Positions 5,510-52,061 are shown, counted from the stretch's first letter. The stretch is 64,000 bases of DNA from a virus (IMGVR_UViG_3300042511_000879:1-64000), one strand, 5' to 3'. Notes: generated by a model from the letters alone, not told the origin. Made by a program: numbers and translations.

Positions 5510-6844
5510 TTATCTGTTAAATCTTTTTGCAATTTCAGCACCTAATTCAGTAGCGTCATAACCTAGCGTTTGAGTTGTTTCAACCACTGATTCATTTACC
5601 ATAGCGATTTTTTCCATTACTGGAGCAACCTCTCTAAGGTCTCTAGTTTGCCAGAAGTTTGCAACTTGGTAAGCTGTTTCTAATTTATGATATTTAGATT
5701 GTGCTACTATTTGGTTTTTCTTACCTTCAGAACATTTAGCCCAAGTATCATGGTATTCAGTTGGCATTAATTTGATAACATTAGGTGTGTTGTTAGTTTC
5801 TACAACTCCTGATAATGAAGTGTTCCATAGAGCTAAAATTTGTCCTTCAGTAAGGTAACCTCTTCCTTCAACTGCGCTTACAACTTTAGATTTTTCTTCA
5901 ATAGTTAATGTATTAAATTCATTTACTTTCTCTTCAGAGATAAATTTAAAGAATGTTGGATTTTCTGATTTTTTAGAATTTACCTTTTCAACAATTGCTT
6001 CTAATTTAGAAGTAATTGAATTTTTGTAAGCTTCCATTTGGTCAACTTGTTTACCAGCAGCTTCTCCTTCACCTTCAAGGTCTAAGTCTTTTTCTACGTC
6101 TTCTGGTTTTCCAGTGATTACATTACCATCAGCATCAACTACATCAACAGTAACATCTTTAGTAGCAGTTTTAATGTCTTCGGCAGGAATTCCTGCTTCA
6201 GTTCCATCATTTGCTTCTGTAATTTCTTTACCAGCAGCATTTCCTTTACCAGCAAGTTTTATGTCTTTTGCAACATCTTCTGGTTTTCCAGTGATTACAT
6301 TACCATCAGCATCAACTACATCTGGAGAAACATCTTCAGTTTCATCTTTAAGAGCTTCAGCTGGAATTCCTGCTTCGTCTTCTAATAATAGGTTAGTATT
6401 AACTGTTTCTGCAACGTATTCTGCGTATTCAGTTACTTTCTCTAAGTTCTCTCTTAAATATTCAGTATATTTAATTAAGTTGTCATAAGAAGTAGAACCT
6501 TCATTGTAAGATTCAGCTAAATAGTTAGTGTAATTTTTGATAGCATCAACGCTTTCAGCGATATGCTCAGAATATTGAATACCTTGATCAACTTTTTCTG
6601 CAAGTGTTTCTGCATATTGAATACCTTGGTCTGCTTTTTCAGCAACGTGTTCTGAATATGCGATTGATTCTTCTAATTTCTTAGCTAAATAATCGGTATA
6701 TTCTTTTAATGATTGTACTTGAGAACTAGTAGACTCTGCTTCTGTTAAAGAATTCATACTTTCTTTAATAGATTTGATTTCTTCAGAAAGATATTTAGAG
6801 TATTTATTAAAATCCTCAGTCGTAATAAATTTAGACTCTGCCAT
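5510..6844 (-). CDS. 22: Possible internally initiated scaffold protein (gp22-like)
   Basis: In-frame ATG at 6844 (Met197 of the fusion) would give a 444-aa scaffold beginning MAESKFITTEDFNKYSKYLS. The 30 nt before it are A-rich, with no G-rich stretch, just like the leaders of ordinary genes here. Scaffold is normally needed in large excess over protease, which a second start would supply. This is inference; the sequence shows only a plausible start and a domain boundary at that point. Confidence 0.4.
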   Translation of the reverse strand: MAESKFITTEDFNKYSKYLSEEIKSIKESMNSLTEAESTSSQVQSLKEYTDYLAKKLEESIAYSEHVAEKADQGIQYAETLAEKVDQGIQYSEHIAESVDAIKNYTNYLAESYNEGSTSYDNLIKYTEYLRENLEKVTEYAEYVAETVNTNLLLEDEAGIPAEALKDETEDVSPDVVDADGNVITGKPEDVAKDIKLAGKGNAAGKEITEANDGTEAGIPAEDIKTATKDVTVDVVDADGNVITGKPEDVEKDLDLEGEGEAAGKQVDQMEAYKNSITSKLEAIVEKVNSKKSENPTFFKFISEEKVNEFNTLTIEEKSKVVSAVEGRGYLTEGQILALWNTSLSGVVETNNTPNVIKLMPTEYHDTWAKCSEGKKNQIVAQSKYHKLETAYQVANFWQTRDLREVAPVMEKIAMVNESVVETTQTLGYDATELGAEIAKRFNR

Positions 6845-7432
6845 TTTTGTTTCGTTTATATTTTCGATTGATTGTTTTTTGTTTTCTTTATTTATCTCGT
6901 AAATAAATAGGTCGTTTCCTTCATTAACAAAACCATAAGCTTCATTAACTCTTTTCAATTCAGCGTTTTCAAACCCAGGGTCTGCAACTAAATCGTAAGT
7001 AAACAATTGTTTGATTTTTACAGTTCCATTAGATTCAACTGCACCAGCTGCTCTACTTGAAATTTGTAATGGAACTCCAGCATCTACAAGAGCTTTTGCC
7101 TGTCTTCCTGCATCAGTATCTAATAGTCTGATACGTCCTTTAACTTGTTTTGTCTCTGTATCATAAGTAAGTTCTTCAATAATATGTGATACATTTTTTA
7201 AAGAAACATCAAATGTTTGTGGGTGGTCTAATTCACCTAATAGCTTAGATGATTTAATTTTGGCCTGTAGAGCTTCAATTTGCGGTAAGTATTCAGATTC
7301 AGTATAGATTCGGTTATTACGATTTTTCTTATCGATTTCTCCAAAGATACCCTCTAGAACATAAGTCCCACCTTCTTGTTTAAACTCTAATTCCGTTGAC
7401 GATCTTTCTAAGATCAGTAAGTTATTAGTCAT
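5510..7432 (-). CDS. 21: Prohead protease fused to prohead scaffold (gp21-gp22 fusion)
   Basis: 640 aa. Residues 1-175 are a T4 gp21-type prohead serine protease: NRNNRIY (37-43), LGELDHPQ with candidate catalytic His70, and LQISSRAAG with candidate Ser125/126, followed by DPGFENAELK. Residues 197-640 are scaffold-like: a 14-residue repeated coiled coil built on Y-x-(E/N)-x-(V/L)-A-E (about 230-345), then two copies of an acidic segment containing VDADGNVITGKPEDV, then a helical C-terminus. T4 makes these as two genes, 21 and 22. Here the linker (about 178-196) is Lys/Asn/Glu-rich and looks like translated intergenic DNA, and Met197 has a leader-like A-rich upstream sequence. It lies between the core protein and capsid genes as in T4. 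The protease matures the head and is expected to cut after (I/L/V)-x-E. Confidence 0.9.
   Translation of the reverse strand: MTNNLLILERSSTELEFKQEGGTYVLEGIFGEIDKKNRNNRIYTESEYLPQIEALQAKIKSSKLLGELDHPQTFDVSLKNVSHIIEELTYDTETKQVKGRIRLLDTDAGRQAKALVDAGVPLQISSRAAGAVESNGTVKIKQLFTYDLVADPGFENAELKRVNEAYGFVNEGNDLFIYEINKENKKQSIENINETKMAESKFITTEDFNKYSKYLSEEIKSIKESMNSLTEAESTSSQVQSLKEYTDYLAKKLEESIAYSEHVAEKADQGIQYAETLAEKVDQGIQYSEHIAESVDAIKNYTNYLAESYNEGSTSYDNLIKYTEYLRENLEKVTEYAEYVAETVNTNLLLEDEAGIPAEALKDETEDVSPDVVDADGNVITGKPEDVAKDIKLAGKGNAAGKEITEANDGTEAGIPAEDIKTATKDVTVDVVDADGNVITGKPEDVEKDLDLEGEGEAAGKQVDQMEAYKNSITSKLEAIVEKVNSKKSENPTFFKFISEEKVNEFNTLTIEEKSKVVSAVEGRGYLTEGQILALWNTSLSGVVETNNTPNVIKLMPTEYHDTWAKCSEGKKNQIVAQSKYHKLETAYQVANFWQTRDLREVAPVMEKIAMVNESVVETTQTLGYDATELGAEIAKRFNR
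6099..6322. repeat. 47-bp perfect direct repeat (6099-6145 and 6276-6322) within the scaffold coding region
   Basis: The 47 bp are identical by eye and encode the two copies of DADGNVITGKPEDV. Nucleotide identity, not only protein similarity, suggests a recent duplication or gene conversion inside the scaffold part of the fusion. Confidence 0.8.
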
Positions 7433-7853: not shown

Positions 7854-7874
7854 TTTATTTATATTTTTATTTAA

Positions 7875-9464: not shown

Positions 9465-9486
9465 TATATTATTATATTAATTTAAG

Positions 9487-9494
9487 TTATATAT
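9487..9494 (-). promoter_or_regulatory. Putative late promoter of the portal gene (ATATATAA)
   Basis: Minus-strand GAATATATAACT, 23 nt before the portal ATG at 9464. It overlaps the stop codon of the preceding gene. Confidence 0.45.
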
Positions 9495-24871: not shown

Positions 24872-25204
24872 TTATTTGTACTCATTTTCATATTTAGACT
24901 TTAACTCTTCCCATGCAGCTTTATACTTTGCTGGAATTTTATCAGGTCCATAAACTCTAGAATTAGATTTTTTAGATGAACCTACTTTATAGTTTTCACC
25001 TGTGTAGTATTCCATAAATTCATCTCCAACCTTTCTAGAACCATCGTCTTTAACGTAGATACCATAAGTAATATAAGTATCTGAATCTAAATGTCCTTCT
25101 AAAATATCACAAGATGGATTGTGATTTTTATGTGAGTTAAATTGATAATCAAGAAATTTTACGGCTTCGTTGATAAATTGTTCAAATAATTTAATGTGTT
25201 TCAT
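24872..25204 (-). CDS. Capsid-targeted internal protein, unknown domain
   Basis: 110 aa. It has the tag MKHIKLFEQFINEA, predicted to be cut after FINE, leaving about 97 aa (AVKFLDYQFNSHKNHN..., ending KSKYENEYK). The remainder is small, hydrophilic and beta-rich (YITYGIYVKDDG), with a single Cys. It starts a two- or three-gene cassette with both an early-type and a late-type promoter upstream and a terminator behind, inserted between nrdA and the clamp gene. Function unknown. Confidence 0.75.
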   Translation of the reverse strand: MKHIKLFEQFINEAVKFLDYQFNSHKNHNPSCDILEGHLDSDTYITYGIYVKDDGSRKVGDEFMEYYTGENYKVGSSKKSNSRVYGPDKIPAKYKAAWEELKSKYENEYK

Positions 25205-35589: not shown

Positions 35590-35955
35590 TTATTTAATTA
35601 TTACGAATAAACCTCCTCTAGATGACGCAGATTCAGTGTTACCATTAGCTAAAGTAACTTTAGATAGTACTTCACCACCTAATTCTTTAGCAACTTCTTC
35701 TGCTACTGAATTTACTTCAAAGAAAACAACACTACCTCCATTATCTGCTAGTATGTTATATCCATCGCCTTCTACTACATTTGGCTTTTTAATCATTTTA
35801 TTGATAGGACCATTTACTGATTTACTATCAATGTTAATAATGTAAGTACCACTGCGACTTTTATAAGCTTTTGGACTTTGAGCATTTTCTATAGGCTCAT
35901 ATACATTATGGTCCGATTCATTTACAAAATCTTCGAATAGTTTAATGTGTTTCAT
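35590..35955 (-). CDS. Capsid-targeted internal protein, unknown domain
   Basis: 121 aa. Tag MKHIKLFEDFVNES, predicted cut after FVNE. The mature part is small and beta-rich: SGTYIINIDSKSVNGP, GYNILADNGGSVVFFEV, EVAKELGGEVLSKVTLANG, ending GGLFVIIK. No Cys, no membrane segment. It looks like one compact globular domain of about 100 aa. It has a late-type promoter 19 nt upstream and the possible structured RNA behind it. Probable capsid-internal or ejected protein; activity unknown. Confidence 0.72.
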   Translation of the reverse strand: MKHIKLFEDFVNESDHNVYEPIENAQSPKAYKSRSGTYIINIDSKSVNGPINKMIKKPNVVEGDGYNILADNGGSVVFFEVNSVAEEVAKELGGEVLSKVTLANGNTESASSRGGLFVIIK

Positions 35956-37761: not shown

Positions 37762-38538
37762 TTACTTTAAATAACCATAATCATCTAATTTTCCATTATG
37801 ACGAAGTTCTTGGTATCTACTACCTAAATCAAAAAGAGTACCAAAATGATTTCCATTTTTATCAAAGAAATAAATGGTATCTCCATCTTCTTTATATTCG
37901 TATCTTTCTTTCATATTTCGCAAAAGATCAGTTTTTAAACCAACTAAAATTTTACTTTTAGAATTACTATAATCTACGATTTTTTGCACAGATTCATTAA
38001 TAAATTGTTCAAAGGATTTAAACTTCTTTAAGAACTCTTTACGTCTCTTTTTTTCCTCTTCCTCATCCTCTTTGTCATCTTTCCCAAAATTTGGAATGTC
38101 TCCAGAACCGACTTCAGTTTGTGAAGGTAGAGCAGTTGCTCCCATTCCTCCAATACTTTCAGGAGAAACCATCTCATCTAATTCATGATAACCGTCGTTT
38201 GCCTGTTTAATATAATTATAAGACTGTGAAATATGGTCTTGCAACCATCCTGGTAAGTCCTTTTCTTCTCTTCCAATTTTCTGAAGTAATTCACCAACTG
38301 CTTTTGAAATTGCATTAAGTTGACTCATTGCCATTCCAACTTCATGGTCTTCAGCTTCTTTAACATATTCAGGAAGTCCTTCGTGTTTTGTACTTGCAAA
38401 ATCTTTCAATTGTTGAAGTGTCATAGAATCTGCAAGGTCTTTAACCTCTTGGCTTGCATCTTTAGGGTCCATATCTCCTTTTTTAAGAGCGTATGCCATT
38501 CCCATTAATTGTTGTTGTGCTTTACTCGTACTTGGCAT
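37762..38538 (-). CDS. DUF3008 protein with an internal capsid-targeting tag
   Basis: 258 aa. Residues 1-65 are a DUF3008 domain: MPSTSKAQQQLMGMAYALKK, MDPKDASQEVKDLADSM, LKDFASTKHEGLPEYV. A helical segment and an acidic-basic run (KEDEEEEKKRRKE) follow. FKSFEQFINESV then appears near residue 183, which is the capsid-targeting tag placed inside the chain. The last 70 residues are a small domain ending DDYGYLK. If the tag is cut after FINE, two products result. DUF3008 occurs in many phages and bacteria without known function. It looks like a fusion of two cargo genes. Confidence 0.75.
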   Translation of the reverse strand: MPSTSKAQQQLMGMAYALKKGDMDPKDASQEVKDLADSMTLQQLKDFASTKHEGLPEYVKEAEDHEVGMAMSQLNAISKAVGELLQKIGREEKDLPGWLQDHISQSYNYIKQANDGYHELDEMVSPESIGGMGATALPSQTEVGSGDIPNFGKDDKEDEEEEKKRRKEFLKKFKSFEQFINESVQKIVDYSNSKSKILVGLKTDLLRNMKERYEYKEDGDTIYFFDKNGNHFGTLFDLGSRYQELRHNGKLDDYGYLK

Positions 38539-38539: not shown

Positions 38540-39076
38540 TTACTTTTGGTCTATTTGTATGATTTCAGAACCTCTGATTTCAACGTTATTTTCTCCAATT
38601 TCGGCATCATATCCACCGTAAATGTCTTCTCCACCTGCAATTGCAGTATTTAACATACCTCCTAATTTGTTCTTAAATTTAGAACCATCAACATCATCCA
38701 TAAAACCAATATTAATTACAAAGTCTCCGGGAATTCTAATATGTAAAGGAGCACCATCTCTATTCAATCTATTAATAGTATCTGGTTCCCATGAAAGATT
38801 TAGTCCTTTGACGTGTACATATACAACTTGGTCCATATCTTTTACAACCTTTTTAATTTCATCTAGGATGATTTTTTCGGCAGTTTTGGTAAAATCCCAC
38901 CATGCACCATTAACCTCTTCTAAAGTATCTGCTGCATCTCCTTCAAAAGTGGCAGTTTCAATTTCTTTTTTAAAAGCCTGCATAACTTTACCAATAATAC
39001 CTTTAGAGGTATAAGGTCCAGTCATTCTGTATGCTTTTTCATTTAAGAAATCTTCAAATAATTTTATGTGTTTCAT
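38540..39076 (-). CDS. Capsid-targeted internal protein, unknown domain
   Basis: 178 aa. Tag MKHIKLFEDFLNEK, predicted cut after FLNE. The mature part of about 165 aa is alpha/beta: KGIIGKVMQAFKKEIETATF, VYVHVKGLNLSWEPDTIN, RIPGDFVINIGFMDDVDG, ending RGSEIIQIDQK. No Cys. It is coupled to both neighbours (1-2 nt). It looks like a real folded domain rather than a peptide. Function unknown; internal head or ejected protein by its tag. Confidence 0.75.
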   Translation of the reverse strand: MKHIKLFEDFLNEKAYRMTGPYTSKGIIGKVMQAFKKEIETATFEGDAADTLEEVNGAWWDFTKTAEKIILDEIKKVVKDMDQVVYVHVKGLNLSWEPDTINRLNRDGAPLHIRIPGDFVINIGFMDDVDGSKFKNKLGGMLNTAIAGGEDIYGGYDAEIGENNVEIRGSEIIQIDQK

Positions 39077-39523: not shown

Positions 39524-40117
39524 TTATTTTACCTTAGGGTATTTAGTCTTAATTTCTTTATAGAATTTCTTGTAATTAGTAGCATTCATGTGGTCTTCAG
39601 CTGCTCTAAGCAAATCATCTAAAGAAGTCCATTGAACATCCGCTAATTGATCTTGTGTTGTTGAAACTTGAGCCATACGATCTAAAATTCCAAAAATAAT
39701 ATCATCTGTTAATTTTGTTTCGGTACTTGGTTTTTCTTTACCTGCTGCTCTTTTAAGTGTCCACCAATCAACTTTCTTTGGAATTTGATATGATACAATT
39801 CCTCTTTGTTGGTCATTGGGACTAGTTTCTCCAGGTTTACCAATATTACTTTTAATATTATCCAGGTCTAAGTTATCATCAAATCCTTTTAATGCCTTTT
39901 GAATATCTTTAGTTGAATCTATATCTGCCATATCTGGTTCACTCCTAAGAAACATTCTATCAGTTGAACTCATATTAAAATAAATTCCTTTAACAGGTGA
40001 AATAGCTTTGATAAATTGTTTTTGATACTCATCAGAATCTAGACCATTGTTATATCCTGGAAAGGTTTGCATCCTAGCTTCACCTACAAATTGTTCAAAT
40101 AATTTGATATGTTTCAT
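39524..40117 (-). CDS. Capsid-targeted internal protein, unknown domain
   Basis: 197 aa. Tag MKHIKLFEQFVGEAR, predicted cut after FVGE, or none if Gly is not accepted. The body is mixed alpha/beta: ISPVKGIYFNMSSTDRMFLR, IVSYQIPKKVDWWTLKRAAG, and a helical C-terminus ending KKFYKEIKTKYPKVK. It is basic at the end and acidic in the centre. It continues the tight run of cargo genes (1-nt gaps) on one message. Function unknown. Confidence 0.73.
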   Translation of the reverse strand: MKHIKLFEQFVGEARMQTFPGYNNGLDSDEYQKQFIKAISPVKGIYFNMSSTDRMFLRSEPDMADIDSTKDIQKALKGFDDNLDLDNIKSNIGKPGETSPNDQQRGIVSYQIPKKVDWWTLKRAAGKEKPSTETKLTDDIIFGILDRMAQVSTTQDQLADVQWTSLDDLLRAAEDHMNATNYKKFYKEIKTKYPKVK

Positions 40118-40118: not shown

Positions 40119-42860
40119 TTACCAAGCGTAATTTTTAGCGTCTACTTTCTTAACGTAGTCAACGATTGTTTTAGAACTTTCTTTCATTCTACCTTCATAG
40201 AATTTTCCGCTATAACCAGATGCAGCCTCTTTTTCAATATCTACAGCGTATGCAACATATCTGTTATATTCATCTAGGATGTTTTTCATTAAGTTAGAAG
40301 CATCGCTCATTTTGATTTCTCTACCTCTAGGGTCTAGTCCAATAATAAGTTCTCCATATTTTCCTTTTTCAGCTTTAGTTAGGGCATCTTTGATTTGTGT
40401 AGCAAGAGTATCAATAGCTCCTAATACAATTGAATCCATCGGCATTTCTGAAGCTTTTTGGGCTAATATTTGGTTATAACGGGCTTTGTTTTCTGCTTTA
40501 AAGTCTTTATCACTTTTAAAAGCAGTAGCTCCACGTTTATCATCGGCTCTTTTTGATACTAATGACGTTGTAGAATATCTTGCTTTAAGGACATCTAAGT
40601 CAATAACATAAACAGTATCGGCTAATTCAGCTACTTTAGTAAGTGAAGTGATTCCAGAACCATCGTATCTTTTACTGTCTCTTTTGTCAAATCCTGCTGC
40701 ATCTTCTCTAGAACTTGCTTTTGATATAGTTTCAGTTTTTGAGTATCTATTATATCCGGTAGAGTACCATTCATTTTGTCCATTAGTCATTGCTAATAGG
40801 GTGTTTGATTGGATAATTCCATTATTGTATCTACTTGGAATTCTACCAGCTTCAATATATGGATTCTCTTTTTGGTTAGTTACTATATAGAAGTAAATTG
40901 CGTTAGCTCTTTTTTCTTTACGAGCAGTTTGAGGGTCCATTTCAATAATGTCATAATCTTCGATTTGGTCAATTGCCAATTTTGAGAAGTTATAGAATGC
41001 TCCTGCAAGGTCTTTAGTACCTGCACTTCCTACAGAGAAAAGGTTAGATAATTTAGCACTTTTAAATGCCTCGTTTAATGTACCTTCATTTAATTTGTTT
41101 TCAACAAATTCTGCGAAAGATTCGTAAATAAATTTTGTTTTCATATCGTTGTTATTTTTGTTTTCGTCTAAGTCAATAACCCAAGCATATTCAACGTACT
41201 TGATAGCGTCTTCAGGATTTACATCCCATTTAAGTGCCGCATCTAATACGATTTTTCTTGTAATTTTGCTATTTGGGTATTTTGCAATTTCTTTTTCAAA
41301 TCCTCCAGGAACCCAAATCTTAGGTGCCTTAGTAGTAGCTTCAAATATTTGCTTTAATCTTCCTTTTAATAGTTTTTTAACCTCTATTGACATATTGGTT
41401 TTATTATTATCGAATTCTTTAGAATTTCCTAATTCTTCTCTATTAAAAGCATTTAATTTATCATCAAAATACTCATCAGCATCAAGGTCTTCTATATTAT
41501 CGTCAACATCTAACCATTCATCATCTACAAATTGTTTAGCTAATTTTTTATAGTTTAATCCTTCATTCATAGTAGCTTCAGAAACCATAACATTTTTAAG
41601 GATTCTTGAACCTGTTTTTGATAGGGTAATTCCATCTTCAGATACATTAAAACACTGAGCGTTTCTTCTCAACCATCTTTTAGAATCTGTAGTCATTTCT
41701 TTAAGAATATTATTAAAATCTTCTTGAGAAAGTTTACCATCTTTAATAGCTTCTAGCATTTTGTTACGAACTTTAGCAGCTTTACCTACAGTAACTGCAG
41801 GATTTTTATCAGTATAATGCCTTTTGATTGTGATGTTTCTTTCATTAACTACTGATTCTTTAATAGCATTTTTAACATCGCCTAATGTAGATATTTCCAT
41901 GTTGGTTGCAACTGTTAAAAAATCAAATGCATCTTCATATTCTCCACGATCCCAGAGTTTGTCAAATTCTTCAATATCATCTTCATCACCGATTAGAGCA
42001 TATCCTGGATCAATTCCAATTTCTTTATTAATAAAGTCGATAGTTTTTTTAATGTCAGATTTTTTAAATCCAGTTTCATTAACTACTGATTCATTTAAAC
42101 CAAACTCTCTGATATCGTTTTGTCCATTGTCAAATGATTTTTGAATAGCCGCTAATGCTTCTTTTCTATCGCTTGCAGATTCAAACCCAATTTCGTCATC
42201 GCTAAATGCTTTTGAATATTTTTTCCATGAGTCTTTTGATAAATCAGCAACTTTTCTTAAGTTGATTACTGTAGATTCTATACGGTATTTTGAAGCAGTT
42301 CCGGATGGGTAATTGTTAGTTGATAAACCTAAAACTAAATTAGCCTCATCTAAAGAAGATTCTTTAATAATTTTATCATCTTTATGGAAAATGTATTCCA
42401 TTTTCTTACCAGTTTTCTTAAATTCACCGCTATAAGAAACTTCTCCATCTTTATTTTTAAAAACTTTATCAACTACAAATTCTCCATCAGATGAAGCGTA
42501 AGGAATTACAATACTTCCTTTTTTAACAGTAGCTTCATTTGTAACTGATTCTGATAATTTATTAAGATTTTTAACAATAGTATCTACTGAATCATTCCAT
42601 TTACCATAAACAGGACTTCCAGGTACGGCATTGTTTACAACATCACCATTTGCATGTATAGTATAAGAACCTCCATCGAACTCTTCTCCATTACAATCGA
42701 TGTCGAATGAATCCTCTTCTAATGTTCTAGTGTTAACGGTGCATTTGCTACCATCTGCCTTTGAAAGGGCTTTAGCATAAAGTTCTGCAACTTTTTTAGT
42801 TTTTTCTACAGATAACCCCATCGGTTTAGAGCTTTCGTTTAAGAATTGATCAAAATTCAT
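40119..42860 (-). CDS. Giant capsid-cargo polyprotein with internal protease sites (913 aa)
   Basis: 913 aa. N-terminal tag MNFDQFLNES. Repeated protease-like signals follow: ESVTNE (104-109), ESVVNE (257-262, with LNE just before), ESVVNE (335-340), VSE/MNE (428, 433), and KLNE/TLNE (592, 596). At 573 a second tag-like start MKTKFIYESFAEFVENKLNE lies after a Lys/Asn-rich linker (DENKNNND) that looks like translated intergenic sequence. Segments between sites are small domains of 70-160 aa, with a long C-terminal part (about 597-913) of unknown fold. I see no enzyme motif. It is read as a fusion of several internal head proteins cut by the gp21-like protease. Its own late promoter lies upstream. 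Confidence 0.8.
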   Translation of the reverse strand: MNFDQFLNESSKPMGLSVEKTKKVAELYAKALSKADGSKCTVNTRTLEEDSFDIDCNGEEFDGGSYTIHANGDVVNNAVPGSPVYGKWNDSVDTIVKNLNKLSESVTNEATVKKGSIVIPYASSDGEFVVDKVFKNKDGEVSYSGEFKKTGKKMEYIFHKDDKIIKESSLDEANLVLGLSTNNYPSGTASKYRIESTVINLRKVADLSKDSWKKYSKAFSDDEIGFESASDRKEALAAIQKSFDNGQNDIREFGLNESVVNETGFKKSDIKKTIDFINKEIGIDPGYALIGDEDDIEEFDKLWDRGEYEDAFDFLTVATNMEISTLGDVKNAIKESVVNERNITIKRHYTDKNPAVTVGKAAKVRNKMLEAIKDGKLSQEDFNNILKEMTTDSKRWLRRNAQCFNVSEDGITLSKTGSRILKNVMVSEATMNEGLNYKKLAKQFVDDEWLDVDDNIEDLDADEYFDDKLNAFNREELGNSKEFDNNKTNMSIEVKKLLKGRLKQIFEATTKAPKIWVPGGFEKEIAKYPNSKITRKIVLDAALKWDVNPEDAIKYVEYAWVIDLDENKNNNDMKTKFIYESFAEFVENKLNEGTLNEAFKSAKLSNLFSVGSAGTKDLAGAFYNFSKLAIDQIEDYDIIEMDPQTARKEKRANAIYFYIVTNQKENPYIEAGRIPSRYNNGIIQSNTLLAMTNGQNEWYSTGYNRYSKTETISKASSREDAAGFDKRDSKRYDGSGITSLTKVAELADTVYVIDLDVLKARYSTTSLVSKRADDKRGATAFKSDKDFKAENKARYNQILAQKASEMPMDSIVLGAIDTLATQIKDALTKAEKGKYGELIIGLDPRGREIKMSDASNLMKNILDEYNRYVAYAVDIEKEAASGYSGKFYEGRMKESSKTIVDYVKKVDAKNYAW

Positions 42861-42884: not shown

Positions 42885-42892
42885 TTATATAT
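42885..42892 (-). promoter_or_regulatory. Putative late promoter (ATATATAA)
   Basis: Minus-strand AAGATATATAAAAC, 25 nt before the ATG at 42860 and overlapping the stop of the preceding gene. Confidence 0.48.
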
Positions 42893-44756
42893 CTTTGTTA
42901 ATAAATTGTTCGAATGTCATGATTTCATTAGTAACTGATTCTGTAACAACTCCCATTGCATCTTCAATTTTAGATTTAAGTTCATTATACATCGAATGAA
43001 CTGCCTTTGGTGTTAGATTGTTAAATTGTTTTTCATTACCATCTAATAGAGCATTTCTAACTGCAGTAGCCGAAATATCATCGTCAGTTCTTGGAATTTC
43101 AAAAAGTCCAAAATCAGCTCTACAATTTAATTGGTCTCTATAAGAATCATTATTAACTTGATAACCATAGCTTGTCATTCTATCACTTCCCGTTCCCCAA
43201 AGTACTGGCTCATATTTAGGTCTCATTTCATTAAACATGATATCGATACCTCCAGTTGGAACTACAAATATTTCTTTTAAGAATGGATATTGTTTTTTAA
43301 CATGATTGAACATATCGATTTGGGTCTTTTCATCGTATGGTCTGCTAAATTCATCACCTTTCTTTTTGGTTTTTGATTTAACTAGGAATACAACTACTGG
43401 AAATCCATTCTCTTTATGTATAGTTTCTAAAACTTTTGCATGGCCTAATGTAAACGGCTGGAATCTTCCAACAAACATATTTACTGGTTGTTTTCCTTGT
43501 TCAACATGAGTAAGTTTAAGTGCCTCGTTTAAATTAACTGAAGATTTGATTTTATCACGCAACATAAAATTTTGGTAGTCATAGATTGCATTTTCATCAG
43601 TGTTTTCAACAAATATTTTATCGTTGATTTTTTCAATAATTTCGTTTAAACGTTCCATAGTATCTTGGTCTATTAAATCTGAAGTTTTAGTTCTTTTCTT
43701 TCTAAAAGAACCTAAAATCATTTTAAAAAGTTCTGCTAGAATATCGTTAGAAACATATTTTAAGGTTTTTTCATCGGTAATATACTTTGAGTTTAATTTA
43801 AAAGATTCTGCTGATGAAAATTCAGCGCTTTCAAAATTAACTCCAATATATTTTGAAGAGTTCTTGTCAACATATTCATTAAATATAATTGACATTATTT
43901 CAAGATATCGATAATCTGCTCGGTCATCTTCAAGCTGTACTTCATCGATCTTAAATTGAGTTATAAATTCTAAAAAGTCGGTGACTGCAATTTGATACAT
44001 GTGACTTGAAGAGTTATCAATTGGATTTTTTCTTGTAAAATCTTCTAATTTAAAAGATTTTATAGATTTTTCATCGATAAAATTAACAACCAATCCATCG
44101 AATTCCTCATCAATATCAGAATTTAGGGCAGTTTCAAAAGCACTAGGATTAAAAAGTTTAACTATTTTACTGGTAAAACTTAATTTGTCCTTTGTTTCTG
44201 GTAAATAGTCGAATGATTCACTAAATTCTCTATCACTCATTCCAAGCAATTCTAGTAACTCATCTCTTTGTAATTGAGATAAATAGCCATCAAATAATAT
44301 GCTTGGCTGTTGAACATCAAGAATTTTTGCCCATTTATTTAAGATTACCGGGTCATTAATAGTTTTCTTAACTTTATTACCTTCTCCAAGTTGTTGGATA
44401 TGCGTTAAGATTAAATTATTTTTTGGAGTTTTTATGTATTTAATTTTAGATACATTAACTTCTGGTAGGTATTCAAAACCAAATCTCCAATCAATTGGCA
44501 TTTGATTTTTAGTAGCACTTGGTAAACTTTGCATGTAGTTGATTGCAATCTCATATAGAGATATAATTGTTCTATCAACTAAATTTAGTTTGTCTGAATT
44601 TGAAGATTTAAAATATTCAAATCCATCAAGATTTCTTTTAACAAGAAATGTAGGCGCAGAAACTTTCTCAGTTACTAACACCCTATTTTTTAACATCTCA
44701 ATAAAGGTTTCTCTATTGGTTTCGTTAAAATACTCTCTTAATTTTTGTAATGCCAT
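42885..44756 (-). CDS. Ligase-fold nucleotidyltransferase fused to NMN-adenylyltransferase-like domain, with C-terminal capsid tag
   Basis: 623 aa. Residues 1-240 look like an RNA/DNA-ligase-fold nucleotidyltransferase: VTEKVSAPTFLVKR with candidate nucleotidyl-lysine Lys31, FGFEYLPE (motif III region), EEFDGLVVNF (217-226, motif IV) and KSFKLEDF (motif V). Residues about 427-600 are a cytidylyltransferase-like domain of the NadM/NadR type: GRFQPFTLGH (430-439, HxGH-like) and ISATAVR (561-567). The protein ends GVVTESVTNEIMTFEQFINK, a capsid tag or protease site at the C-terminus instead of the N-terminus. It may be packaged and ejected. Substrates are unknown; NAD-linked RNA chemistry is possible. 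It sits beside another ligase-like gene. Confidence 0.75.
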   Translation of the reverse strand: MALQKLREYFNETNRETFIEMLKNRVLVTEKVSAPTFLVKRNLDGFEYFKSSNSDKLNLVDRTIISLYEIAINYMQSLPSATKNQMPIDWRFGFEYLPEVNVSKIKYIKTPKNNLILTHIQQLGEGNKVKKTINDPVILNKWAKILDVQQPSILFDGYLSQLQRDELLELLGMSDREFSESFDYLPETKDKLSFTSKIVKLFNPSAFETALNSDIDEEFDGLVVNFIDEKSIKSFKLEDFTRKNPIDNSSSHMYQIAVTDFLEFITQFKIDEVQLEDDRADYRYLEIMSIIFNEYVDKNSSKYIGVNFESAEFSSAESFKLNSKYITDEKTLKYVSNDILAELFKMILGSFRKKRTKTSDLIDQDTMERLNEIIEKINDKIFVENTDENAIYDYQNFMLRDKIKSSVNLNEALKLTHVEQGKQPVNMFVGRFQPFTLGHAKVLETIHKENGFPVVVFLVKSKTKKKGDEFSRPYDEKTQIDMFNHVKKQYPFLKEIFVVPTGGIDIMFNEMRPKYEPVLWGTGSDRMTSYGYQVNNDSYRDQLNCRADFGLFEIPRTDDDISATAVRNALLDGNEKQFNNLTPKAVHSMYNELKSKIEDAMGVVTESVTNEIMTFEQFINKDI

Positions 44757-45246: not shown

Positions 45247-46536
45247 TTATCTTCCATATTTTATAATTCCCATCAACTGATTAATCGCAGCGAATGTTCC
45301 TGTTAATTTGTACATGTGTCCTTTGTATGAAAATACAATACCTTCAGTCGGTATAATAGATTGGATTCCTCCAATTCTTTCAAGTCTATCAAGTTCTTTT
45401 GCAACTTTCTCGATTTGAGTAAGGTCTCCATTTAGTTTAATTTTATCGGCTTCAGTTCTGATTTCATTATGTAGCCTTTGCATTTCTTTTTCAGGAGAAG
45501 CAGCAACAAAGTTACTTGCATTCTTTAAGATAACACTTCCAAGTTCTAAGAAAAGGTCTTCAAATGGTCTAATGTTTTCTTTGAATTTTACTTTAAAGTC
45601 TTCTTTGTCAAATTTCTTAACAGCATCTGATTGTTGTTTTGTTAATTCTTTGTCTAAAGAGCGCATGTTTAATGTTTTCTTATCATCATATGCCCATCTA
45701 AGTAATAATCCTTCTTTAATATTTTGTGGATATTCTCCGAATAAATTTTCAATTTGCTCTCTCCACCACATTTCATGGTATCTTGCAACTGCATCAGCAT
45801 CTGTTAATTTATAACGATTTTTAAGAGCATCAAGTTTTCCTAGGAATTTAGACTGATTCTCTTCAAAATTCATATCTTTTTGTAGTTTAATAACCTGCGG
45901 AGGGATTATTGTAAATGTTTTTCCAATATCAGCGTTTAGGGATTTAAGTACTCCAGTAACACTTTTTGCCGCACTATTGTCATCTCCAACTATATTTCCT
46001 GCACCATCAGTTTTCTTGATACCATGGAATTGAATTACATCAACATCGTAGTGAATTACATTAGGATTTGCAGAATATATCAACTCCATGTTCATGAAGT
46101 TTAGGCCATTCTGGAACACTTCCTCTTGTGTTTTTGCCGGCAACTTTATAAGCAGGGTTGCTAAATCAGCGGCTGCAAATTGGAAAGTATCTTGTACTAA
46201 TTTGCTAGCATGTCCCTCAAATTTATTTTGGAAATCCTTAAGGCTCATAGGATTTTGCAACTCAGTTTTATTTCTGGCAAATTTAACTTCACCATTTTGA
46301 ATAGTTGCAAATACGTTTTGACCGTCTGTTTTTTCAGTAGGTTCCTCTTCAAAGTTCAATTCACCTTGAAGTCCACCAATAATCATATTCTTGAAGTCTC
46401 CGAATGTTAGGTCATTATTATCGAATGGATGGGACATGTGTCCAGCAGCTCCACCTTCTAATAGTAACTGTTCATTCAATTTAACTTCATACTTTTCAGT
46501 TATGAATCGATTAAAATTAAGGATTCTTGTTTTCAT
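45247..46536 (-). CDS. Ligase-fold nucleotidyltransferase-like protein with capsid tag
   Basis: 429 aa. The start MKTRILNFNRFITEKYEVKL contains FNRFITE, a variant of the capsid tag, and LNE at 20-22. Motif I EKTDGQNVFA carries candidate nucleotidyl-lysine Lys69 in K-x-D-G, followed by GEVKFARNKTE. Motif III-like NMELIYSANPNV, motif IV EGIVFSY (398-404) and motif V MYKLTG (408-413) complete the ligase/capping-enzyme pattern. RNA ligase, polynucleotide ligase or nucleotidylation of another target are all possible. Placed in one run with the 623-aa ligase-like fusion. Cargo role is inferred from the tag and neighbours. Confidence 0.75.
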   Translation of the reverse strand: MKTRILNFNRFITEKYEVKLNEQLLLEGGAAGHMSHPFDNNDLTFGDFKNMIIGGLQGELNFEEEPTEKTDGQNVFATIQNGEVKFARNKTELQNPMSLKDFQNKFEGHASKLVQDTFQFAAADLATLLIKLPAKTQEEVFQNGLNFMNMELIYSANPNVIHYDVDVIQFHGIKKTDGAGNIVGDDNSAAKSVTGVLKSLNADIGKTFTIIPPQVIKLQKDMNFEENQSKFLGKLDALKNRYKLTDADAVARYHEMWWREQIENLFGEYPQNIKEGLLLRWAYDDKKTLNMRSLDKELTKQQSDAVKKFDKEDFKVKFKENIRPFEDLFLELGSVILKNASNFVAASPEKEMQRLHNEIRTEADKIKLNGDLTQIEKVAKELDRLERIGGIQSIIPTEGIVFSYKGHMYKLTGTFAAINQLMGIIKYGR

Positions 46537-46543: not shown

Positions 46544-47092
46544 TTACTTTGCAACTCTGTTGCTTTTAATGTTTTCCATTGCGATATCATCAATCAATCT
46601 TGTAAAAGAACTTAGGGTTGCAGCGGTATAAAATCCATCTTCACCAGGACCTGCATTGTTTGCTCCTACTTTATAAGCTTGAATGTGTCCAGCAAGTTCT
46701 AATGCTGCATCTCCCCATCCGGTGTCATTTCCTCCATTAGATTTAGCACGTTTAATTGCATCATTAGTAAGTGCTACTAAATCGTTTGCACCTCTAAATG
46801 CTTCGGGTTTTTTACTACTTTTCTTACCAGAAACGTTATTGTGTTCAATATCATCAAGGCCCATATTATTAACCAGTTCTTGGAATAATGATGGTGTTTG
46901 TGGACCATACCATTTGTCTGCCTTTGGGTCAATAGTACTATCAATATATTTTCCAAGGTCTGTTAGGTAATCAAGTACATTTTGACCATTACCGCCACGT
47001 GCAAATATTTTTTTAGAGGCGTCTTTTACGTATTTTACGTAGTCATTTTTTCCTTCGTTAATAAATTGTTCGAATAATTGTATGTGTTTCAT
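46544..47092 (-). CDS. Capsid-targeted internal protein, unknown domain
   Basis: 182 aa. Tag MKHIQLFEQFINEGK, predicted cut after FINE. The mature part is helical and polar: KKIFARGGNGQNVLDYLTDL, TPSLFQELVNNMGLDDIEHN, DAALELAGHIQAYKVGANNA, ending DIAMENIKSNRVAK. Glycine-rich turns suggest a compact all-alpha domain. It is coupled to the 47094 gene (1-nt gap) and the ligase-like gene (7 nt). Function unknown. Confidence 0.75.
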   Translation of the reverse strand: MKHIQLFEQFINEGKNDYVKYVKDASKKIFARGGNGQNVLDYLTDLGKYIDSTIDPKADKWYGPQTPSLFQELVNNMGLDDIEHNNVSGKKSSKKPEAFRGANDLVALTNDAIKRAKSNGGNDTGWGDAALELAGHIQAYKVGANNAGPGEDGFYTAATLSSFTRLIDDIAMENIKSNRVAK

Positions 47093-47093: not shown

Positions 47094-47366
47094 TTATAAA
47101 TTGCTTAGTTTATTGTTTAAATCAAGTATTGCAGAATTAATTTTTATTTTCTGATTATCAAGTTCAAGAAGTGACATTTTAAGAGTTGCTATTTGCGCTT
47201 GAATTGCAGATTTTGGGTCATCTACCTTTTGATTCAAATCATTTACTTTATTTCTAAGTTCTTTTCTTTTTAGGAATATGTCGTGTGATTTAGCCGACAA
47301 ATCAGATCTTGCATCTGTATAGTCAGATTCATTTAAGAACTCTTCAAATAAGTTAATGTGTTTCAT
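47094..47366 (-). CDS. Capsid-targeted small coiled-coil protein
   Basis: 90 aa from ATG 47366 (MKHINLFEEFLNESDYTD); the upstream ATG 47405 would start inside the terminator and promoter. The tag ends FLNE. The remainder is one long helix pair, KRKELRNKVNDLNQKVDDPK and QIATLKMSLLELDNQKIKIN, ending LNNKLSNL, with coiled-coil heptads. An early-type promoter ends 5 nt before the start, so the message may be leaderless. Confidence 0.72.
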   Translation of the reverse strand: MKHINLFEEFLNESDYTDARSDLSAKSHDIFLKRKELRNKVNDLNQKVDDPKSAIQAQIATLKMSLLELDNQKIKINSAILDLNNKLSNL

Positions 47367-47370
47367 AGTG

Positions 47371-47403
47371 TAAATATAATAAAAATACCTGACATGGTAA
47401 AAC
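47371..47403 (-). promoter_or_regulatory. Putative early promoter, -33/-7 type
   Basis: Minus-strand GTTTTA (47403-47398), exactly 19 nt, TATATTTA (47378-47371). It overlaps the terminator of the upstream gene and ends 5 nt before the ATG at 47366. Confidence 0.45.
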
Positions 47404-47413
47404 ATCAGGTATT
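47384..47413 (-). terminator. Intrinsic terminator after the 1029-aa polyprotein gene
   Basis: Stem AATACCTGA / TCAGGTATT followed on the minus strand by TTTTT. It lies 18 nt past the stop at 47431 and shares bases with the early-type promoter at 47371-47403. Confidence 0.7.
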
Positions 47414-47430: not shown

Positions 47431-50400
47431 TTAAGATTCTTGAGCTATCATTGCATCGATAACATCAGATGAAATCCATCCTTTTGCTTTAACAAATTCT
47501 TTTGCAAGTTTTAAAACTTTCTTTTCTCCAGCAGATGTTACCTCATTTTCTTTACCGTTTTCATTATTATCATTCCAATCTTCAACGCAACCTTCTACTT
47601 CTTGCTGTAGTTGAAAATTACCTGGATTTTTACTTTTTGTAGAATCTTCATGATAATCTTCCCAGTAGTTTGCATCAAATGCTTCAGTAACAACTGATTC
47701 TCCAAGAGAACTTGTTAGCATTCCAACCGCAGCTCCATAATCTCCATCACATTTTTTAAGAATTCCATCAACTACTTCTCCAGCTTTAGCTTCATCAAAG
47801 TCTTCTCCGAATGCTTTTTTCAAAACAGCCATCGCATATTCTTTAAATTCGTCATCAGATTTAACTTCAGCTTCATTAACCGTAGATTCAAATACTAACG
47901 TAACATCCTTAACGTTAAGAGTTTTAACTAAATCTCCTAATTTATCATATAAATCATTTAATTCATCTTCAGTGTGGTGTTTATATCCTTTCTTTAAGTT
48001 TATATTTGCACTACCAAATTTAGCCATATAATCATCTTTTCCTTCAGTAACTACTGATTCTTTAGCAGATCCAGCGGCTTTAGCTCTTTTTAATTGGGCT
48101 TTTTTGATTCTGTCCGTTTCTTCTCTATGGTCTCTTAATTTCTTTAATTTCTTTAATTGCTCAGCTTTACGAGTTGCTTCAGCACTTGGACCAGAACGTT
48201 GATAACCACTTTCAGTTACTGTAGATTCAGCAACATTGTTTTCCCACCATGTTTTAAGTTCATTAAAATCAGATTTACCCATGTTAGAAATCATGTATTC
48301 GATAATATCATTGTCGTAATCTTCAGCCTCATCTCTGTAACCTCCTGGAGTATCGATATAATCTTTACCCATGATTCTTTTGATTCTTTGTTCTGGCATA
48401 CCATCGATTTCCTCACAGAATTCTTCAAAGTCTTTAGTTGATTTGAATTTTTCAGCTTCATTAACTACTGATTCATTTGCGTAAGCTCCTAATTCGCTGA
48501 ATTTAACTTTTTTACCTGCTTTTTCTTCATCATTTTCATCAGAATGCGCTAATAAACCTGCATCAAATAATCTTTTAAGAACTTCTCCTTTAACCAGACT
48601 ATAGTCGATAGCATTACTTGAATTTTCCCAAGTATCACCTACATATTCTGGATCGATCCAACCATAACCTGATTTAATATCTTTAATTAAGGTCTGTACA
48701 TCTTTGTCAAATTGCTTAGTACCTTCATTAACTACTGACTCGATCAATTCCATATTATATGCATTTGAAATGTCAGTTTTAATTTCTCCAGTTTCTTTTG
48801 AATGCAACTTCATAGTTTTACCATCAGGATTTAATTTAATGAATGTAACTTCACCGTAGTCTGATGTGTATTTGTGGTTTGGCTTTAAGTCTTTTGCTTT
48901 ACCTTCGTAAACAGTTCCAGCAACCTCATCATAATTGTTAAATTTCTTAGCAGATTTTTTAACAGTGTTTAATTGTTTAATGATAGAATCAATTACTCCA
49001 GGGTCAATATCATTTCCAGCATTTGCACTATTAAATAAGTTGGTTAAATTTTTAGATGCTAAGTATAATTCGTTACCAATAACATCTTTTGGTAATCGGT
49101 TGAATGCTTCAGAAACGGTAGATTCATTACATAATGAATAAAGTTCTTGCGCAATCTTTTTTGCTTTTGAACCAGAATGTCCGTAAGTTTCTACAGTATC
49201 TAATGCATCTTCCATCGACATACCATGTAGTTCTTCCATATCACCATCTCTTTCATCTAAAAGATCGTCTAGTATATTTGAAGCCTCATCAGCCTCTTTT
49301 GATTCAGAAACTACCAATTCTAGGTCTTTATCTTTATCAGCAATTGTTGCATCAAGTTCAGCTTCTAGGGCTTTCTTTTGAGCAGTCATTTCTTTTAATT
49401 TTCCAAGTAATGATTCTTTAGCAGAACCTTCAGCAACTTTCCAATTTTGTGCGGTAGCTTGCATTGAAGTTGTTAACTTAGACCAGTCATATTGAATTTT
49501 AGCAATTGAACGAGCTTCATCAATAGATTCTACTGATTCATTTTTCTTTTGAGATGCTTTTAAATCTTCAAGTTCTTTTTTCAATTTAGGGTCTAATTGT
49601 CTTTCAATTCCCCAGTTAAAACTTGCATTTATTAACATATTCAATGGTAAGTTTTCATTTTTCTTACCGAATACGGATGTTTTAATCCAGTTTAAATAAT
49701 GTTCAGCTAAATCTTTTGATAATTTAATACCTTCTGCTCTTGAAGAATCTCCATCAACAATAGATTGAAGTATCTTTTTAGCCATTCCGTGTGAACCTTC
49801 ATTAACTACAGATTCTTGTATAAAACTAATATCTTTAAGATATAATTCATAGTCAGAACCATCTTGTGTATATCCAGTAAAAGAATCTCCTTTGTCATCT
49901 TTTAATTCTTTAGGGTCAACTGAATACCAGTCATTTCCAACAAAAACTTCTACAGGTTTTCCACTAGTTTGAGTATATAAGTCATGTGCAGTTTTACCTG
50001 TGAATTTGGTTCTTTTAGCCTCTTCGACTTTGTAAGTTTCACCATCAACTTCGAATTCATCTTCGTCATCTTCTTTTGCTTTTTTAACAGCAGCTCCGAA
50101 CGCATTACCTTCGTTTTTTTCGCTTTCGCTAAGACCAGTGTCTTTCTTAATGGTTACTTTATATTTTTTACCATTAAATTCAAACTCAGATTTTCCATCT
50201 TGTTTAGCTTTACTGGCTGCAAAAATAAATGCATTTCCCTCTTCTAGTTTTTTAGGTTCTCCTAATTTATTAAGCTCATCTTCAATATCTTCTGCCTCAT
50301 CTTCTGAAACTGTTCCAAACATTTTGTTAATTAGGGCTTGTTTTTTCTCTTCATCTAACTCAGATAGAGAAGTTAAACCCATTTCATCAAGGATTGCTCC

Positions 50401-50520
50401 AATTTTACCAACAGTTTCCTGTCTTTTTGCATTGTTTGTTTCTCTTAGTTTCATTGTATTTTCCTGATTCTTAACTTCAGTAAAACTCTTAAATGAAGAG
50501 ATTTTGTTAACTTGTGCCAT
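47431..50520 (-). CDS. Giant capsid-cargo polyprotein with eight ESVVNE-type protease signals (1029 aa)
   Basis: 1029 aa. Eight copies of E-S-(V/T)-V-(N/T/S)-E occur at 236-241, 466-471, 594-599, 683-688, 765-770, 821-826, 878-883 and 941-946. They cut the chain into segments of about 56-230 aa with no mutual similarity, each looking like a small helical or mixed domain. The N-terminus MAQVNKISSFKSFTEV has a tag-like FKSFTE. Residues 95-167 hold two copies of a small repeat (GNAF...FEFNGKKYKV and GNAF...FEVDGETYKV). The signal equals the end of the capsid tags (FVNE) and fits (I/L/V)-x-E cleavage. I read it as a polyprotein of internal head peptides; no enzyme motif is recognised. It has its own late promoter and terminator. 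Confidence 0.82.
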   Translation of the reverse strand: MAQVNKISSFKSFTEVKNQENTMKLRETNNAKRQETVGKIGAILDEMGLTSLSELDEEKKQALINKMFGTVSEDEAEDIEDELNKLGEPKKLEEGNAFIFAASKAKQDGKSEFEFNGKKYKVTIKKDTGLSESEKNEGNAFGAAVKKAKEDDEDEFEVDGETYKVEEAKRTKFTGKTAHDLYTQTSGKPVEVFVGNDWYSVDPKELKDDKGDSFTGYTQDGSDYELYLKDISFIQESVVNEGSHGMAKKILQSIVDGDSSRAEGIKLSKDLAEHYLNWIKTSVFGKKNENLPLNMLINASFNWGIERQLDPKLKKELEDLKASQKKNESVESIDEARSIAKIQYDWSKLTTSMQATAQNWKVAEGSAKESLLGKLKEMTAQKKALEAELDATIADKDKDLELVVSESKEADEASNILDDLLDERDGDMEELHGMSMEDALDTVETYGHSGSKAKKIAQELYSLCNESTVSEAFNRLPKDVIGNELYLASKNLTNLFNSANAGNDIDPGVIDSIIKQLNTVKKSAKKFNNYDEVAGTVYEGKAKDLKPNHKYTSDYGEVTFIKLNPDGKTMKLHSKETGEIKTDISNAYNMELIESVVNEGTKQFDKDVQTLIKDIKSGYGWIDPEYVGDTWENSSNAIDYSLVKGEVLKRLFDAGLLAHSDENDEEKAGKKVKFSELGAYANESVVNEAEKFKSTKDFEEFCEEIDGMPEQRIKRIMGKDYIDTPGGYRDEAEDYDNDIIEYMISNMGKSDFNELKTWWENNVAESTVTESGYQRSGPSAEATRKAEQLKKLKKLRDHREETDRIKKAQLKRAKAAGSAKESVVTEGKDDYMAKFGSANINLKKGYKHHTEDELNDLYDKLGDLVKTLNVKDVTLVFESTVNEAEVKSDDEFKEYAMAVLKKAFGEDFDEAKAGEVVDGILKKCDGDYGAAVGMLTSSLGESVVTEAFDANYWEDYHEDSTKSKNPGNFQLQQEVEGCVEDWNDNNENGKENEVTSAGEKKVLKLAKEFVKAKGWISSDVIDAMIAQES

Positions 50521-50552: not shown

Positions 50553-50560
50553 TTATATAT
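50553..50560 (-). promoter_or_regulatory. Putative late promoter (ATATATAA)
   Basis: Minus-strand GAGATATATAAAC, 33 nt before the ATG at 50520 and overlapping the UvsW stop. Confidence 0.48.
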
Positions 50561-52061
50561 CTCCATCAAAATCCACTTTCTTTACAGTGTATTCAAATTT
50601 CTCTTGTTTATATATAGATTGTCGCACCTTTCCGTGCTTGTATAGATAATTATCCCATTCAACTGTTCTAATATCATCGACGAAATCAACAATTAATACT
50701 TTGTCTTTTGAGTGATGTTGTCGAAGTCCACGTCCAATTGATTGTCTAATAATTACCTCTGATTTGAATGATTCGGTAAAAAATATGTTGTGAATTTTCT
50801 TAATTGAAATACCTGTAGAAAATGTTCCAAAACTTGCAACAATTACAATTTCATCACCAGCCTCCATTTTCTTTTTGTATTCCTCTCTAATTTCTGAAGC
50901 AGTTCCACCATCAACATAAAATACTCGTTTGTTACTCTCTTGTCGCAGCTTTTCATAAAGTCGCTGTCCATGTTCTATTCGATGAAAAAGTACTAATGAG
51001 TTTCTAGGTACTCTTGCAATTACATTTGAAATAAAATTAAGTCTGGCTTCGCTTGTGATTACAAAGTTTTGCTCCAATGAGAACACATCTTTATTTTCAT
51101 ATCGGTTTTGGGCCAATTCCATAAAGGCAGTTCGCTGTTTTGGAGTTGCATAGTTCATTTCAATAACTTTAACTACGCATTGAGCAATATGCCCCTGCTC
51201 TTGTAAGAAACTTGCCTTAACTTCACTAATAACAGGTCCAGTTTGGCTCATTAGGGTTAATTTGTCAAGTGTACCATCTTTAGGTATTGTACCTGAAAGT
51301 CCAAATCTATATTTTGCATTAACACATTTACTCAGGATTTCTTTGATACTGGCTCCTTTTGCTTTGTGAGTTTCATCAACAATAACTGCGTCGAATTCTG
51401 CAAAATAGGCAGCATCTTTTTTAATTAGTGATTGATAGGTCCCAATAATTATATTTTTATTCTTTTTAACCTCTTGTCCTGCAAATATTTGTTGGATTCG
51501 TAGATCAATTCTATTTTTACAATTATATTCATGGAAATCTTCATGGGCTTGGACTACTAATGAAACGTTTGGAACAATGAAAAGAATCTTTTGAGCATGT
51601 CCCTTTTCAAGCATATATGCAACGGTCATGAAGCTAATCAATGTCTTACCTGCTGAAGTTGCAAGTTCTGCTAGACACTTTCTAAATTTTAAAATGTTAT
51701 ATGCAGTTTCTATTTGATAATCACGTGGAGTAAATTGTGAACCTTTAAAGAATTCTAGTGCCCATTCCTCAAACTGTTCTGCATTAATGTTGGAGTCAAT
51801 AAGTCTCTTAATACCCTCGATTTTAAGTTCGTATCGGTATTCTTTACATATTGTCATAACATGACGCCAAAGTCCGGCTGGAATCCATTTATCATCTTTA
51901 ATATATGATACGTATCCATCCCAAACTCCGCGTTTTACTAGAGGGTGAAACCTCCAACTTTCTATTCTTTTGGTCAGAGAGATTCGAATCTGCTCTAACT
52001 CAATTTCGGTAGCTTCATCAATTCTTAAAAATTGATTATCATCCGTTAATGTTAAAATCAA
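50553..52061 (-). CDS. uvsW: DNA/RNA helicase UvsW
   Basis: 502 aa; T4 UvsW is 503 aa. An SF2 helicase that processes branched DNA and R-loops, reverses forks and switches T4 from origin to recombination replication. Motif I is LATSAGKTLISF, motif II VIVDETHKAKG, motif III LSGTIPKDG, motif VI RQSIGRGLRQHHSKDK. The N-terminal small domain (ESWRFHPLVKRGVWDGYVSY) is the UvsW-type wedge. It is coupled to UvsY through a 16-nt gap. All motifs are intact. Confidence 0.95.
   Translation of the reverse strand: MILTLTDDNQFLRIDEATEIELEQIRISLTKRIESWRFHPLVKRGVWDGYVSYIKDDKWIPAGLWRHVMTICKEYRYELKIEGIKRLIDSNINAEQFEEWALEFFKGSQFTPRDYQIETAYNILKFRKCLAELATSAGKTLISFMTVAYMLEKGHAQKILFIVPNVSLVVQAHEDFHEYNCKNRIDLRIQQIFAGQEVKKNKNIIIGTYQSLIKKDAAYFAEFDAVIVDETHKAKGASIKEILSKCVNAKYRFGLSGTIPKDGTLDKLTLMSQTGPVISEVKASFLQEQGHIAQCVVKVIEMNYATPKQRTAFMELAQNRYENKDVFSLEQNFVITSEARLNFISNVIARVPRNSLVLFHRIEHGQRLYEKLRQESNKRVFYVDGGTASEIREEYKKKMEAGDEIVIVASFGTFSTGISIKKIHNIFFTESFKSEVIIRQSIGRGLRQHHSKDKVLIVDFVDDIRTVEWDNYLYKHGKVRQSIYKQEKFEYTVKKVDFDGDI

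Follow-up and report, generated by a model that had tools for sequence, protein, structure and literature searches.

Why should a large T4-related phage encode one long protein in which the same short motif returns between domain after domain? We asked this of an open reading frame (ORF) at 47431..50520 (minus strand, ATG start, 1029 amino acids, aa) in IMGVR_UViG_3300042511_000879:1-64000, a 64-kb stretch of DNA, hereafter the window, out of the 236-kb record of a large uncultivated T4-related myovirus. We denote its product polyprotein 1 (PP1); the plus strand at 47431-50520 is full of stops, and PP1 is read from the minus strand. A first-pass annotation had proposed a polyprotein that lies inside the head and is matured by the prohead protease, and every comparative test that we ran, on sequences and on structure models, supports that proposal. 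We consider it very likely that PP1 is a head cargo polyprotein with a single N-terminal tag, which would be cut in trans into ~10-14 small proteins.

Motif and domains of PP1

The motif ES(V/T)V(N/T/S)E occurs exactly eight times in PP1, at residues 236, 466, 594, 683, 765, 821, 878, and 941, precisely where the first-pass annotation had placed it; in 20,000 shuffles of the protein it averaged 0.0012 copies and never exceeded one. The copies use differing codons, so they are not one recent DNA repeat, and it is the amino acid sequence of the motif that is conserved. A degenerate DNA pattern of the motif matched 13 times in the whole 236-kb genome, on one strand only (reversed-pattern control: 2); by the in-frame locations derived from the coordinates, PP1 holds seven matches and a second such protein (polyprotein 2, PP2) three. 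Of the other three, one falls in a cytidylyltransferase ORF (42885-44756), and tagged genes near 149 kb, which begin with a capsid-targeting-like tag, account for two. Divided at the strong sites and at two weaker junctions, PP1 consists of the following parts (a slash marks the predicted cut):

50476..50520, minus: residues 1-15, N-terminal capsid-targeting-like tag, ending SSFKSFTE/ (MQKLKSFDQFSTE/ in relatives)
49798..50475, minus: residues 16-241, the N-terminal region, in which a GNAF...KxYKV unit occurs twice, ending ESVVNE/G (motif 49798-49815)
49516..49797, minus: residues 242-335, the first cargo of a small tagged gene in L012 (tag...ESMLNE/ARVKAA), ending SIDE/A
49303..49515, minus: residues 336-406, helical domain ARSIAKIQ..., found straight after a tag in L023 and L033, ending VVSE/S
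49108..49302, minus: residues 407-471, missing as a single unit in L004, ending ESTVSE/A (motif 49108-49125)
48724..49107, minus: residues 472-599, one or two domains with a weak junction VYE/G at 539, ending ESVVNE/G (motif 48724-48741)
48457..48723, minus: residues 600-688, missing as a single unit in L004, ending ESVVNE/A (motif 48457-48474)
48211..48456, minus: residues 689-770, AEKFKSTKDFEEF... domain, ending ESTVTE/S (motif 48211-48228)
48043..48210, minus: residues 771-826, basic, 56 aa, ending ESVVTE/G (motif 48043-48060)
47872..48042, minus: residues 827-883, ending ESTVNE/A (motif 47872-47889)
47683..47871, minus: residues 884-946, the most conserved domain (21 proteins), ending ESVVTE/A (motif 47683-47700)
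47434..47682, minus: residues 947-1029, the C-terminal domain, which shares 78% identity with domain two of the L012 small tagged gene

With eight sites the segments have the lengths first described, about 56-230 aa, but they are not all mutually unlike, the GNAF...KxYKV unit occurring twice (residues 95 and 138). The strong sites likewise stand, but they are not the full set: weaker junctions lie near residues 94 and 137 (~E137) in the N-terminal region and at 335, 406, and 539. Relatives display the last three, SIDE/A (335) being aligned to ESIVNE/A in L004, VVSE/S (406) to VVSE/A, and VYE/G (539) bordering a domain present in L004 and L005; given such junctions in relatives, the 230-aa piece is probably three pieces. 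The products, first taken for peptides, look rather like small folded domains of ~5-12 kDa. In AlphaFold models the mean predicted local distance difference test score (pLDDT) was 62.7 for PP1 (27 sequences) and 62.5 for PP2 (29 sequences), with separate folded stretches visible, and each of the eight motif Glu residues of PP1 is located within, or at most two residues from, a stretch with pLDDT < 50; the PP2 sites behave likewise. Pfam and PHROG scans returned no family covering PP1 at E <= 0.001, scaffold and core families included. The weak names that these scans gave for PP1, PP2, and their relatives (FliG_C, DUF4168, tape-measure fragments) were at chance level and were not used.

Internal sites, tag ends, and the protease

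PP1, PP2, and neighbouring proteins (MKHIKLFEQFINE/) begin with a capsid-targeting-like tag of ~10-20 aa. Small ORFs starting MKHIKLFEQFINE or near variants number at least eight in the window, with others at ~99 kb and 147-151 kb of the genome; the PP1 tag is a variant form (KISSFKSFTE/, with the form listed above in relatives), and that of PP2 is MNFDQFLNE/. The tags end in a gp21-type site, hydrophobic-x-E/small: in 69 nonredundant tags of the clade, P3 is V, I, or L in 68 and P1 is Glu in all 69; P2 is usually Asn or Thr, and Ala, Ser, Lys, and Gly predominate at P1'. In the T4 record, IPII and IPIII start MKTYQEFIAE/A. Cleavage by T4 gp21 follows L/I-X-E; in IPIII it takes off residues 1-10, which form a capsid-targeting sequence (PMC9026906).

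The first-pass annotation had noticed that the PP1 motif ends as the capsid tags do, and two tests bear this out. At a threshold of 6, a site profile built only from the tags of stand-alone genes, and so independent of the polyproteins, found 12 sites in PP1, whereas 1000 shuffles averaged 2.7 and reached at most 9; the excess in PP2 was weaker (6 vs. 1.9, maximum 7). In the junction test, tags were removed before alignment, and the mature stand-alone proteins were matched to homologues inside longer proteins; a hydrophobic-x-E lay within one residue of the tag's P1 at 132 of the 185 distinct internal junctions (16 tag families), against a mean of 23.6 and a maximum of 42 at random positions in the same proteins (2000 trials).

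Single pairs illustrate the correspondence. FEQFISE/SGNAIAQSRPFEQHEV of a 294-aa gene is matched, with 91% identity, by ESFISE/SGNAIAQSRPFEQHEV within a protein of 451 aa (...E/SGNAIAQ), and FESFINE/ARKQYKVLDV by ESKVNE/ARKQYKVLDV with 98% identity; FNEFINE/RNITIKR corresponds to ESVVNE/RNITIKR in PP2, and FEQFINE/ADITQP of a 198-aa cytidylyltransferase to VNLNE/ALKLTH within a 623-aa protein of the window. In the small tagged gene of L012, relatives of PP1 residues 242-335 and of the last PP1 domain are joined by PVNE/G, the intervening domains being omitted. We used only individual junction examples of this kind; a loose clustering of segments had merged unrelated PP1 domains via two-domain segments.

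The domains are also gained and lost as modules bounded by these sites. Among clean, flank-filtered indels in PP1 relatives, 26 of 82 were whole inter-site units, against 1.05 expected (maximum 6 of 10,000 simulations); in PP2 relatives the count was 6 of 35, against 0.33 (maximum 4). L005, for instance, has one extra domain bounded by ESVVTE/AFDA and ESATNE/AFDA. Of 63 aligned junction cells, 60 retain the P1 Glu and 61 a hydrophobic residue at P3, the remaining P2-P4 letters drifting. We weigh the junction and indel tests above these conservation counts because the alignments behind the counts may lean towards the motif.

The presumed processing enzyme is encoded in the same phage:

5510..7432, minus: gp21-type prohead protease with a scaffold-like C-terminal part, one ORF

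It matches Pfam S77 (1.4e-11) and PHROG 207 (1.5e-40), and its alignment with T4 gp21 conserves the catalytic His (GELDHP) and Ser (ISSRAAG). The protease and the scaffold-like part meet at RVNE/AYGFVNE/G, two sites of the same kind, an arrangement consistent with self-processing. T4 gp21 and gp22 are separate genes.

PP2, tagged genes, and neighbourhood

Two further proteins of the window carry such sites:

40119..42860, minus: PP2, 913 aa, tag MNFDQFLNE/, P1 Glu sites 109, 262, 340, 433, and 592/597
42885..44756, minus: 623-aa protein with a cytidylyltransferase domain after VNLNE/A (P1 residue 411), ESVTNE/I at 606-611, and a C-terminal tag-like MTFEQFINKDI

The last 12 residues of the 623-aa protein, IMTFEQFINKDI, look like a C-terminal capsid tag. 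The FEQF core at this end recurs in nearly all of its ~30 relatives, Lys replacing Glu after FIN, and in several of them an ESVTNE or GFTNE that is predicted to be cleavable precedes it.

Stand-alone tagged proteins surround the polyproteins:

45247..46536, minus: tagged internal protein, 429 aa, MKTRILNFNRFITE/
46544..47092, minus: tagged internal protein, 182 aa, MKHIQLFEQFINE/G
47094..47405, minus: tagged internal protein, MKHINLFEEFLNE/S
39524..40117, minus: tagged internal protein, MKHIKLFEQFVGE/A
38540..39076, minus: tagged internal protein, MKHIKLFEDFLNE/K
35590..35955, minus: tagged internal protein, MKHIKLFEDFVNE/S
24872..25204, minus: tagged internal protein, MKHIKLFEQFINE/A

The 429-aa protein contains EKTDGQNVFATI, which resembles a nucleotidyltransferase/ligase motif, and it is possibly a packaged RNA- or DNA-joining enzyme. 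Tagged proteins of one, two, and three domains at ~147.5-151.5 kb, with internal ESVTNE, ESTVNE, and ESFMNE, form a size continuum. They belong to a second cluster of tagged genes (5549-9504, minus, in L070, genome 142000-156000), several of its members having two or three domains separated by ESVTNE, ESTVNE, ESFMNE, or RNLNE/A; one domain of this cluster matches an extra domain of the L010 polyprotein. The DUF-like MPSTSKAQQ protein at 37762-38538 (minus) has a complete internal tag (FKSFEQFINE/SVQKIVDYS), and its relatives in L008 and L010 have LTFENFVNE or LTFESFVNE at the corresponding place.

Other genes give the context:

3819-5351, minus: Gp23-type major capsid protein
7875-9464: portal protein
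50553-52061: helicase, read as UvsW, with PP1 directly downstream

The capsid protein starts LINE/AEI, a start shared with LR756500, a related 462-kb phage. Collagen-like GXY repeats (GPQGPIGQTG..., GFQGAQG...) occur in structural proteins at 59585-61828 and 62546-63934 (minus) and at 1932-4568 (minus) in L070. The T4 late promoter TATAAATA is not enriched in the window (10 vs. 11.4 expected) and is absent upstream of PP1, so it offers no argument about the expression of PP1.

Relatives of PP2 are encoded on 144 IMG/VR stretches. Among the 600 proteins with a length of 300 aa or more in the scanned loci, 64 have at least three strict sites, and PP1 of the window has the most (10 by that pattern). 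Among annotated phages, the top matches of the capsid protein and the protease are huge uncultured phages, Lak phages coming next for the capsid protein. A tblastn search of PP1, one PP1 domain, and PP2 against 50,697 annotated phages gave no match, and a PP2 profile found no relative in GTDB genome contigs and hence no host clue. A 49-kb core region of LR756500 has the protease-scaffold fusion and no comparable polyprotein.

Proposed head cargo and its alternatives

The head cargo reading proposes that the one tag (residues 1-15) carries the whole 1029-aa chain into the prohead core, where the gp21-type protease would remove the tag and cleave the interdomain linkers at every (V/I/L)-x-E/(A/G/S) site, on the C-terminal side of its Glu. 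The ~10-14 small proteins (~5-12 kDa) would thus be released in equal numbers; they would probably be kept in the mature head, be injected along with the DNA, in the manner of T4 internal proteins, and act in the new host cell. The products of PP2 and of several two- and three-domain tagged genes would be made likewise, and over evolution domains shift between polyproteins and single tagged genes. The motif, the equivalence of tags and sites, the modularity of the domains, and the protease are read directly from sequence, whereas packaging, cutting, retention, injection, and function are inferred.

Several observations count against this proposal. In about half of the clean PP1 indels an end lies over 5 aa away from any strong site, in many cases at a weaker E/A or E/G junction or in the N-terminal region. 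The short site pattern is found in unrelated proteins too, at 2-5 per 1000 aa, so the protease must need something more, e.g., a location inside the prohead. Model confidence is modest, and low pLDDT can also stem from poor alignments; a Foldseek search of the PP1 and PP2 models against the PDB gave no match at E <= 0.001, and hence no domain with a known fold. Lastly, T4 gp23 is cut near residue 60, and the major capsid protein has no clear hydrophobic-x-E there; the specificity of this clade's protease is thus partly assumed.

PP1 might instead be a prohead core or scaffold protein of the gp22, gp67, or gp68 type, with fragments that mostly exit the head, sites that serve disposal, and no later role. 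T4 gp21 does cut gp22, gp67, and gp68 in the prohead, at several L/I-X-E sites, into multiple fragments (PMC9026906), each of the three being, as PP1 is predicted to be, a single chain with several gp21-type sites, and many PP1 segments are acidic and helical. We nevertheless hold a scaffold role to be unlikely: the protease ORF already includes a scaffold-like region, a polyprotein-type junction stands ahead of the cytidylyltransferase enzyme domain, and domain content varies strongly among close relatives, which fits accessory cargo better. T4 scaffold and core fragments mostly leave, whereas the PP1 sites separate exchangeable domains that recur as single tagged genes. A quite improbable alternative takes the motifs as relics of gene fusion or recombination, i.e., tag remnants that persist as uncut linkers or crossover points. 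Neutral relics should decay, and here the targeting half of the tag has disappeared and its cleavage half (P3-P1') persists, the P1 Glu holding as its neighbours drift; E597 of PP2 is invariant across 29 relatives, and codons differ between copies. The domains do clearly recombine at the motif points, and a full tag is kept at some internal junctions (FKSFEQFINE in ORF 37762, LKNFEQFINE in L125), as the relic explanation would have it.

The reading to which we give least credence, and very little, makes PP1 a beads-on-a-string protein that stays uncut, in the head or elsewhere, with ESVVNE as a repeat that serves structure or binding. In 98 single genes the same residues close the N-terminal tag, at a place where cleavage is expected from T4-type biology, the mature starts of stand-alone proteins coincide with motif sites, and the motifs lie in or beside predicted linkers; on the other side, the repeat is short and stands regularly between domains, and cleavage of PP1 is a prediction from sequence.

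How far does a head cargo polyprotein depart from what is known? Like T4 IPI, IPII, IPIII, and Alt, it has a short N-terminal tag of the same build (MKTYQEFIAE/A in T4; MKHIKLFEQFINE/A here), an expected hydrophobic-x-E cut, and a gp21-type protease in the same phage. T4, however, uses one gene per cargo and one N-terminal cut (Alt with a C-terminal cut besides), each gene giving a single mature cargo, whereas PP1 has one tag, at least 10 domains, and eight strong and several weaker internal sites; by sequence and models it appears as several independent domains split by sites of one protease, as expected of polyproteins in general. The first-pass statement that such processing is unusual in tailed phages holds only with a limit, since there are precedents in T4 gp22, gp67, and gp68 (PMC9026906), in SPN3US (PMC10052503), and in polyvalent proteins (PMC5512222). 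The ejection proteins of phiKZ and SPN3US resemble PP1 in their large T4-related heads, a gp21-like protease cutting after Glu, and chains that are sometimes multiply cut, some SPN3US propeptides being cut several times (PMC10052503, PMC5694885). They differ in that 13 of 14 mapped SPN3US cuts take off N-terminal propeptides, so that a single mature protein results instead of a domain series, and in their A-X-E specificity. Polyvalent proteins of phages and conjugative elements are likewise injected as chains of many shuffled domains; release of the domains as separate units has been proposed, and the chains have been likened to RNA-virus polyproteins (PMC5512222). They embed a peptidase, whereas PP1 has no peptidase match, none of its 27 relatives has a peptidase or known effector Pfam domain of the polyvalent type, and the predicted cutter is the prohead protease in trans.

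The open-access literature that we searched contains no description of a T4-type cargo polyprotein; subscription papers were mostly outside that scope, so an earlier description is possible. What would be new is the polyprotein form for T4-type head cargo, multi-site core cleavage and polyvalent injected proteins being already known.

The polyprotein strategy is familiar from RNA viruses. If the head cargo reading is right, the strategy reaches T4-type head cargo, one tag and an in-trans protease replacing a tag per gene, with fixed stoichiometry and easy domain exchange. Chances are about even, in our judgement, that in a widespread clade of large uncultivated T4-related phages head polyproteins form an exchangeable cargo cassette, in which one tag would bring in equimolar amounts of ~10-14 mostly unknown host-acting proteins, to be cut by the prohead protease in trans, with free domain swaps and at least one enzyme also packaged via a conserved C-terminal tag. 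The reading predicts exact N-termini and gives a practical rule: splitting proteins at hydrophobic-x-E linkers may reveal dozens of injected effector domains overlooked when ORFs are annotated whole. Foreign proteins are already loaded into heads by means of the T4 targeting tag, and a natural design with one tag and many cargoes would therefore be of engineering interest.

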